Positions 59,851 to 61,963 of a stretch of DNA of 64,000 nucleotides are shown here, piece by piece. Numbering within the stretch: position 1 is the stretch's first letter; each line of letters opens with the position of its first letter. Below the pieces are notes generated by a model. It did not search any database. It saw only the letters and a program-made list of their open reading frames with translations, and was not told the DNA's origin. Source of the DNA: Flavobacteriia bacterium. GTDB taxonomy: Bacteria; Bacteroidota; Bacteroidia; Flavobacteriales_D; Crocinitomicaceae. Both the position numbers and the translations under genes were made by a program. The stretch is taken from the NCBI GenBank assembly GCA_016183815.1, contig JACPDW010000010.1, positions 124,001-188,000 of the forward strand, given 5' to 3'.

Positions 59851-60855
59851 ATGAAATGGATAAATATTTTTTTAATTTCGTTGAGTATCATTGTAAATTC
59901 ATGTACAAAGAATCCTTTAGATGTAGTGCCACAAAATAAAAAACTACCCATTTCTTTTATTCGTTTAGATTCTATTATTAGAAATTCAAATAAAGAAGAG
60001 ATTAAAAAATTTCTTTTTAAAATCCAAATTAAACACCAAGAAATAATTCAATACCAATTACAATATTGTTTAGGTATAGGTAGTATTATTGATTCATCAA
60101 CTTTAAATGGAATTGAACTTTTTAAAAAAGACCCCTATATTTCACGTTTAGAAAATGTAATTCAAAAAAACTTCTCTTCACTTAATGAGATCCAAAAAAA
60201 AGTAAAAAATGGCTTTTTATACTTAAACTACCATTTTCCTGAATCTTCATTGCCTCAAAGCATTTTTTTTATCAATTCGTTTTTTTCAAGTAATGTGTAT
60301 GTAGGTGAAAAGGATATTGCCATTGGCTTAGAGAGATATTTAGGGCCAAATGAGCAAGTAATTAAAGAATTACCATCAAAAGAGTTCCATTCTTGGATAA
60401 AAAATAGAATGTTAAGAATTTATTTAGAAAGGGATGTTTTATCTGCTTGGATTTTGACACATCTTGTAAAAGAAGATAATGAGCATTTTGCATCACAAAT
60501 GATACGTTGGGGTAAAATTCATTATTTTACAGAAGCATCCTTTCCGGCAATGGAAAAAGAATTAATTTTAAGATATACCAAAGAGCAATTTGTGTGGTGT
60601 GAAAAAAATGAAAAGGAGATTTGGAAACATTTGGTAAAATATAATCTTTTATTTAGTAAAAATGTAAGAGATATATCAAATTTTATGAATGACGCTCCTT
60701 TTACTTCAGGACTTGACAAAAACAGTCCAGATAGAGTTGGACAATATTTGGGGTGGAAAATAATACATTCATTTATGAAACAACATCCTAAAACCCCACT
60801 AAAAAAGTTATTAAAATTGCCATTTAATGAGATTATGAAAAATTATGAGCAATAA
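59851..60855 (+). CDS. gldB: Gliding motility lipoprotein GldB
   Basis: This 334-residue lipoprotein is needed for gliding in Flavobacterium. The signal peptide ends with a lipobox (SLSIIVNSCTKNP, Cys18). The mature part matches GldB order: LPISFIRLDSI, YLNYHFPESSLP, GLERYLGPNEQVIKELP, and the zinc-dependent-hydrolase-like EMxRWGKIHYFTEASFP (here MIRWGKIHYFTEASFP), plus NSPDRVGQYLGWKIIHSFMKQHP near the end. Length is typical. In F. johnsoniae gldC follows directly, and nadE is commonly nearby, as here. Here gldC is not next; a 322-bp non-coding stretch and proC follow. Confidence 0.93.
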   Translation: MKWINIFLISLSIIVNSCTKNPLDVVPQNKKLPISFIRLDSIIRNSNKEEIKKFLFKIQIKHQEIIQYQLQYCLGIGSIIDSSTLNGIELFKKDPYISRLENVIQKNFSSLNEIQKKVKNGFLYLNYHFPESSLPQSIFFINSFFSSNVYVGEKDIAIGLERYLGPNEQVIKELPSKEFHSWIKNRMLRIYLERDVLSAWILTHLVKEDNEHFASQMIRWGKIHYFTEASFPAMEKELILRYTKEQFVWCEKNEKEIWKHLVKYNLLFSKNVRDISNFMNDAPFTSGLDKNSPDRVGQYLGWKIIHSFMKQHPKTPLKKLLKLPFNEIMKNYEQ

Positions 60856-61177
60856 AAAACCCATGCAGTCGGATTACTGAAGCCTCAGTAACACGTTTAG
60901 GGTATTGTTAACACTTTGTAATCCACCGATTTGAGGTTATCTCCTTTCGATTGCTCGAATTGTGGCCCGCCATTGTTGTTAACTCTTTCCCCTGAATGTT
61001 TAAAATTGTTAAGCTTCAAAATGCACCGCACGGGTTTTAGTATATTAAATTATTGCGCTTCGTTTAGCTATTTTACTTCTGCTAAAGTAGAACTATTTTA
61101 TTTAAAAACAAAACAAATTTGGAGAAAAAGTTTTCAACAGATATTATATCAATTATAAACAATTAAATTTGCAAAAG
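60856..61177. other. 322-bp non-coding patch with inverted repeats after gldB
   Basis: This gap has patches of clearly higher GC than its surroundings (for example around 60960-60975 and 61022-61035). GGATTAC (60871-60877) pairs with GTAATCC (60918-60924), and TTACTG (60874-60879) with CAGTAA (60886-60891), giving alternative hairpins after the gldB stop. A further stretch (about 61022-61090) has no clear structure. No credible gene is present. A -7 box for proC, TAAATTTG (61164-61171), ends the patch. It may be a mobile-element remnant, an unrecognised RNA or the scar of a lost gene. Confidence 0.55.
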
Positions 61178-61963
61178 ATGAAACATTCTATAGGAATTAT
61201 TGGAATTGGTAATATTGGAAGTTCAATATTAAATGGTTTATTAAATAGTGATAATATTCACCCTTCTCAACTGCATATTCACACAAGAAATATTTCAAAT
61301 CTTTCGTGTTGGGAAACTTATTCTGTAAACATAATCAGCGACAAAAAATTACTTTTTGAAAAATGTTCTATAATCATTATTGCTGTAAAACCTTACCAAC
61401 TGAAAGATTTATTAAAGGAAATAAATAATTATATAAATATTGACAAACATATTATTATTTCCGCAGTTAGTGGGATAAATATTGAAGATTATTTTCTATA
61501 TATTAATAATAAAACTCCATTATTCCGAATAATGCCAAATACTGCTGCTGATGTTGGCTCATCAGTTACCTGTCTTTCCTACAACAAAAACAAAAAAGTC
61601 AATGAAGTGAAAGATTTACTTTTAAATTTGGGTGAAATAATTGAAATAGAAGAATCTTTAATGAATGCTGCTACTGTTTTGGGGGCTTGTGGTATCGCTT
61701 TTGTTTTTCGTTTTATCAGAGCAATGGTTCAGGGTGGTATTCAAATTGGATTTGATAGTAAAACTGCAGAAAAAGTAGTTCAACAAGTATTAATTGGTGC
61801 TGTAAATTTATTACGTGAAAACGCATCGCATCCTGAACAAGAAATTGATAAAGTTACCACCCCAAAAGGATGTACAATTGTCGGTTTAAACGAGATGGAA
61901 CATCAAGGTTTTAGTTCTTCCCTTATAAAAGGAATAGAAATGTCATACAAAAGTCTTTCTTAA
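61178..61963 (+). CDS. proC: Pyrroline-5-carboxylate reductase
   Basis: This 261-residue enzyme reduces pyrroline-5-carboxylate to proline with NAD(P)H. The Rossmann motif IGIIGIGNIGSSILNGL opens the protein. LFRIMPNTAADVGSSVTC and the C-terminal block HPEQEIDKVTTPKGCTIVGLNEMEHQGF are diagnostic; the latter carries the helical substrate site. ATG 61178 is chosen over a TTG three codons upstream. A TAAATTTG box ends 7 bp before it, so the transcript could be almost leaderless. The gene stands alone. Confidence 0.93.
   Translation: MKHSIGIIGIGNIGSSILNGLLNSDNIHPSQLHIHTRNISNLSCWETYSVNIISDKKLLFEKCSIIIIAVKPYQLKDLLKEINNYINIDKHIIISAVSGINIEDYFLYINNKTPLFRIMPNTAADVGSSVTCLSYNKNKKVNEVKDLLLNLGEIIEIEESLMNAATVLGACGIAFVFRFIRAMVQGGIQIGFDSKTAEKVVQQVLIGAVNLLRENASHPEQEIDKVTTPKGCTIVGLNEMEHQGFSSSLIKGIEMSYKSLS

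Follow-up and report, generated by a model that had tools for sequence, protein, structure and literature searches.

6S RNA regulates transcription globally, as a promoter mimic that restrains RNA polymerase. As set out in passages of PMC8414754, it competes with promoters for the housekeeping polymerase and serves as the template for short product RNAs, which rearrange it and thereby bring about its release; a conserved GG is reported there for the product RNAs of several phyla, at positions 4/5 or 5/6. Bacteroidales-1 (RF01693) and 6S-Flavo (RF01685) are among the motifs identified in PMC2864571, according to an excerpt of that paper. An excerpt of PMC7366714 presents a 6S RNA of B. thetaiotaomicron that dRNA-seq detected, with evidence for two classes of product RNA, and in Flavobacterium psychrophilum, according to part of PMC9723704, 6S RNA was detected along with three other known RNAs.

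Rfam describes RF01693 as "6S-Bacteroidales RNA suggested". From this description and from general knowledge, we take the 6S RNA of B. thetaiotaomicron to be a member of RF01693. In the open-licence literature, outside of which lies a 2014 study by Wehner that is said to be a survey of Bacteroidetes 6S RNAs, we found no report of a 6S RNA in Crocinitomicaceae, and we claim no priority.

Here we analysed a 64,000-nucleotide stretch of DNA (hereafter, the window) from a Flavobacteriia bacterium of the Crocinitomicaceae. A first-pass annotation had singled out a patch that follows gldB as a possible mobile-element footprint, unrecognised structured RNA or scar of a lost gldC. The second option was correct, and the RNA can be named, most probably as a minus-strand 6S RNA of the Bacteroidales-1 type. 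We estimate a probability of about 0.88 that the patch is the gene for a divergent 6S RNA, diverging from proC and converging on gldB. The RNA is a divergent addition to a known kind and a correction of the annotation, not a new system.

The patch between gldB and proC

The patch lies between two genes on the plus strand, the converging gldB (59851..60855; TIGR03514, 206.6 bits, over the cut-off; PF25594) and the diverging proC, for pyrroline-5-carboxylate reductase (61178..61963; TIGR00112, 220.9 bits, over the cut-off). The local rise in GC that had drawn attention to it was seen, with a G+C content of 0.40-0.44 across 60860-61019 (three 80-base windows) vs 0.18-0.34 in the other windows of 60500-61499. 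The patch also held no credible gene for a protein: two ORFs of at least 30 codons lie inside it, with 44 and 75 codons, and a protein-coding patch was rejected, since no Pfam family matched either of them at E<=0.001. The bounds originally given, 60856-61177, enclose a real patch and are somewhat wide, as the RNA body occupies 60853-61037 and the remainder is upstream spacer.

Raised G+C and inverted repeats might be left by a mobile element. Against this origin, the window's genome holds no second full copy of the patch, and its best other match there is 51 bases long (E=4.7e-4) and covers query positions 213-260, outside the RNA body. Furthermore, 72,556 plasmid records gave no match at E<=1e-5, and the RNA is present as a single copy in nearly all positive genomes of the family (see below). 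The footprint reading thus found no support and has a negligible probability.

The scar of a lost gldC presupposes that gldC belongs next to gldB. This expectation was sound: 8 gldC loci were fetched out of 20 hits, and 7 of them had gldB in their 1.5-kb flanks. The search for gldC elsewhere in the window's genome, as the first-pass annotation had proposed, located an intact gene (G000:C43:204679-204990) with 127.5 bits vs a cut-off of 102.15, and a Pfam GldC-like match confirmed it. The patch is therefore not a gldC scar, a reading that is refuted by the intact gene and whose probability is practically nil; in addition, the patch corresponds to a conserved RNA that is located away from gldB in other genomes. 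A gldC gene was present in all 20 genomes searched, over the cut-off in 18, and gldB gave one match in each of the five genomes of the window's genus. Here the two genes are simply apart, on different contigs of the window's genome; in another genome (G001) the distance between them is ~22 kb.

Match to Bacteroidales-1

At the curated cut-offs, no Rfam family matched anywhere in the window. A cmscan of 60700-61300 found RF01693 on the minus strand at 60853-61037 with 42.5 bits (E=1.1e-5), and the homology spans the whole model (1-179 of 179). The other three Rfam matches in this region had E-values of 4.2 or worse. Genome-wide, the window RNA is the top RF01693 match, with 23.5 bits for the next. 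Its score is 17.5 bits below the gathering cut-off of 60 bits, so that default annotation misses the RNA. In 59 genomes, including the window's own, RF01693 matched 34 at E<=1, with scores of up to 61.7 bits in relatives, and 1 passed the cut-off. Because nearly all copies fall below the Rfam cut-off (1/59 passes), 6S RNA is unannotated in this part of Bacteroidota.

A covariance model that includes the window (R1) scored the window RNA at 142.5 bits. A second model (R2), made from 19 relatives without the window and using the structure that RNAalifold itself proposed, gave 110.4 bits (E=2.5e-25) on the window.

Covariation and strand

A wide alignment (A1) comprised 27 of the 30 fetched loci, with three partial hits left out, and RNAalifold recovered only 14 apical pairs from it. 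A narrower alignment (A2) comprised 20 sequences of the window's family; two partial hits were extended by hand, and 10 loci of other families were left out. The pairs of the helices H1, H2 and H3 were proposed from the window sequence and then counted on the 19 A2 sequences without the window.

The covariation analysis suggested in the first-pass annotation yielded a rod composed of the closing stem H1, the helix H2 and an apical stem. On the 19 relatives, 87.8% of the cells were paired and 24 of the 33 pairs showed double changes, and 0 of 500 shuffles scored as high on any of five measures. The full A2 gave the same 24 of 33 pairs with double changes, 88.7% standard pairs and again 0/500 shuffles as high on the five measures. 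When the partners were slid by 1-3 columns on the 19 sequences, 30-48% were paired. Since the shuffles ignore the relatedness of the sequences, more weight attaches to the slides and to the counts made without the window. The individual helices also covary. On A2, H1 (12 pairs) had double changes in 7 pairs and 93.3% of its cells paired, and the two parts of the apical stem had double changes in all of their pairs (H4a, 4/4, 81.3% paired; H4b, 6/6, 73.3% paired). Taken by itself, H2 had double changes in 5 of its 7 pairs and 92.6% of its cells paired; it was equalled by 0/500 shuffles on four of the five measures and by 62/500 on pair types.

The sense of the RNA is that of the minus strand. 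We considered whether gldB or proC might have a cis-acting leader or terminator here, on the plus strand, since the closing stem could terminate transcription in both directions and the folding z-score is lower on the plus strand; the fold of 60853-61042 beats 200/200 shuffles on each strand, with z=-5.09 (plus) and -3.48 (minus). However, R2 scored the same place at 110.4 bits on the minus strand vs 16.9 bits on the plus strand. The 19 relatives had 77 G-U cells vs 20 A-C cells (80 vs 20 with the window), in a count of pairs that had been picked on the minus strand, and in the A2 relatives the closing stem is followed by a U-rich end. In addition, most of the other RNA loci have neither gldB nor proC within flanks of ~1.5 kb. 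An element serving these genes is highly improbable. A divergent proC is found beside the RNA in G014 and G083 as well, and ~760 bases off in G093 (genus g11); the loci in relatives with proC as a neighbour are L047, L123, L124 and L125.

Anatomy of the RNA and a proposed mechanism

The RNA body of 185 nt runs on the minus strand, as do all features below, from its 5' side at 61037 to a 3' end at 60853 that abuts the gldB stop codon. The arms of the closing stem H1 are at 61025..61036 (5') and 60858..60869 (3'), and a run of six Us after it (60854..60859) forms a terminator-like 3' end, the U-rich end being common to the A2 relatives. H2 pairs GAAGCUU (61011..61017), a presumed template for the product RNA, with AGGCUUC (60879..60885), and the latter arm overlaps the 3'-strand hairpin H3 (UUACUG..CAGUAA, 60874..60891). 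The A/U-rich stretch at 60994..61010 would be the 5' strand of a central bubble, by analogy with the 6S architecture described in passages of PMC8414754. The 3' strand of this putative bubble contains UAAACGUG (60892..60899), placed by its position and the A2 consensus.

In the apical stem, AGGG (60990..60993) pairs with CCCU at 60899-60902 in H4a, and GUUAAC (60978..60983) pairs with GUUAAC at 60907-60912 in H4b. Beyond it are two conserved cores, AAUGGCGGGCCAC (60962..60974), whose CCAC pairs with GUGG, and GUGGAUUACAAAG (60914..60926), both defined by the RF01693 match and the A2 alignment. The A2 alignment also delimits a variable apical loop region at 60927..60961. With its closing stem, apical stem and, if the A/U-rich stretch is open as we presume, central bubble, the RNA has the layout and the length (160-200 nt) of a 6S rod.

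The nested inverted repeats that had been pointed out are both present and fared differently. TTACTG/CAGTAA corresponds to H3 and can form in relatives. GGATTAC/GTAATCC (60871-60877 and 60918-60924) is not common to them: GTAATCC occurs within the last 60 bases in 1 of the 20 aligned sequences, the window's own, and the repeat was rejected as a functional element.

By analogy with 6S biology, the rod would imitate an open promoter and bind RNA polymerase with the housekeeping sigma factor, the A/U-rich 5' strand (60994-61010) acting as the bubble. The polymerase would then copy a short product RNA from the conserved GAAGCUUAAC in the 5' strand towards the closing stem. Pairing of this product with GAAGCUU would break H2, and the freed 3' strand could close into H3, with the release of the polymerase as the expected outcome. 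Binding, templating and release, and with them the 6S function of the window RNA, are thus modelled on known 6S RNAs, whereas the anatomy itself is established, apart from H3, which is plausible.

Comparison with described 6S families

The window RNA has much in common with Bacteroidales-1. The two are colinear over the whole model, have the cores AAUGGCGGGCC and GGAUUACAAAG in common, measure about 180 nt and carry a 3' U-run. They differ in that the Rfam structure annotates the apical part only, whereas in the window's clade the closing stem and H2 are supported by covariation.

The 6S RNAs of E. coli and B. subtilis (RF00013) share with the window RNA a rod with a closing stem and an apical stem and, if its putative bubble and H3 form as supposed, also the central bubble and a hairpin that faces its 5' strand, in the architecture described in passages of PMC8414754. 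In the predicted product of the window RNA, no conserved GG was seen at 4/5 or 5/6 when counted from a presumed product start. At E<=10, RF00013 had 0 matches in the window's genome. The same genome offered no convincing 6S-Flavo candidate: RF01685 did not match at the window RNA, and its matches elsewhere in the genome were weak (best E 0.24).

6S-Flavo did not match over its cut-off in the 59 genomes, nor in 199 genomes of the order. Its top two matches among the latter, both below the cut-off (G189, E=4.5e-6; G149, E=9.2e-5), are contained in same-strand R1 matches, and one locus of G012 (L074) had a 6S-Flavo score of 31.8 bits and an R1 E-value of 6.4e-15. Three loci were matched on the same strand by both 6S-Flavo and Bacteroidales-1, all below the cut-offs, with E-values for the weaker of the two matches of 0.034 (L131), 0.29 (L132) and 0.13 (L128). 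The RF01685 model differs in being only 108 positions long and representing the middle part of the molecule; the likeness is that, elsewhere in the order, it matches loci to which RF01693 or R1 also respond. Because the same loci match both, if weakly, 6S-Flavo and Bacteroidales-1 may describe one RNA and may constitute one family.

Promoter and 5' end

The -7 box of Bacteroidota is TAnnTTTG, as given in part of PMC9723704. In 10 of 20 upstream sequences (L037, L040, L041, L044 and others), an exact TAnnTTTG occurred 49-53 bases before the 5' end of the model; 500 composition shuffles averaged 0.63 such sequences and never exceeded 4. With one mismatch allowed, the box was present in 18/20, vs a shuffle mean of 8.0 and a maximum of 14. 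These counts refer to a search span of 40-75 bases that was picked after inspecting the sequences, to shuffles that keep base composition only, and to a set in which two of the 20 sequences (G016 and G035) are near-identical. In the relatives, transcription probably begins ~45 nt upstream of the Rfam boundary, and the leader would contain one or two 5' hairpins, which were read from single-sequence folds without shuffle comparison.

In the window, the region expected to hold the promoter (61038..61121, minus strand) contains several imperfect boxes, none of them decisive, such as TACTTTAG (61082-61089) and CAAATTTG (61114-61121). TAnnTTTG is found there at 5-of-6 matches only, and the leader is weakly folded. 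The box and the hairpin leader of the relatives lie beyond the Rfam model, and the window has them in degenerate form. Within the RNA body, UAAACGUG agrees with TAnnTTTG at 4 of 6 fixed positions, a weak indication that it mimics the -7 box.

We tentatively propose, at less than even odds, that the 6S RNA of this family has an extra 5' domain of ~45 nt, usually with one or two hairpins, that is absent from the matched Rfam 6S models, and that 6S-Flavo and Bacteroidales-1 belong together in a single 6S family that spans the Bacteroidota and has H2 in common.

Distribution in relatives

R1 was positive in 83 of 100 genomes of the window's family, with all 20 genomes that supplied sequences for the model among its positives; in the 80 genomes not used for building, 63 were positive. 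The RNA is therefore widely conserved in the family, and it is present as a single copy in 82 of the 83 positive genomes, the remaining one (G078) having a second, weak match. At the level of the order, 59 of 120 genomes were positive, 11 of them suppliers, which corresponds to 48 of the 109 not used. Two genomes of the window's genus (G003, G004) had no R1 match at E<=0.01, and in genus g22 of the same family 0 of the 12 listed near-complete genomes had one at this threshold; a lineage-specific loss of 6S or a strong divergence is possible in g22. R1 opens the way to a study of 6S distribution, of possible losses and of the release mechanism in a phylum with an unusual sigma-factor promoter.

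The 3'-strand hairpin H3

H3 uses bases of H2, so that the two are mutually exclusive. With H3 replacing H2, the structure had 87.7% pairing and double changes in 22 of 33 pairs, a total carried by the other helices. H3 alone was 87.5% paired on A2, with 4 to 63 of 500 shuffles as high. Without the window, H3 alone was 83.8% paired, 94 to 433 of 500 shuffles were as high and no covariation was seen, in an alignment with some misaligned rows. An H2/H3 switch kept by covariation was dropped, since H3 alone without the window did not rise above the shuffles. Most of the aligned relatives could form H3; its sequence is retained, and the hairpin is plausible.

This result bears on what the RNA does. 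A conserved structured RNA homologous to Bacteroidales-1 might work otherwise than as 6S, for example as a trans-acting regulator or a protein-binding RNA, given that the 6S reading is based on homology and shape and that the switch hairpin has no covariation of its own. Two points argue against it: weak 6S-Flavo matches coincide with the RNA in related loci, and product RNAs accompanied the 6S RNA detected in B. thetaiotaomicron (PMC7366714, in passages that do not name RF01693). We consider a non-6S role unlikely, and a 6S RNA is the reading that we prefer.

Folding of the 3' segment was evaluated in 25 of 30 sequences, one having been left out for want of the core and four having been missed by the search pattern. 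It beat 95% of the shuffles in 11 of the 25, namely in 4/16 within the family and 7/9 outside it, and the 3' segments from other families have H3-like stems with different sequences. At two loci (L047 in G014 and L050 in G033), an extra hairpin-like insertion with CCCGUC or CCGUC stems separates H3 from the closing stem's 3' arm.
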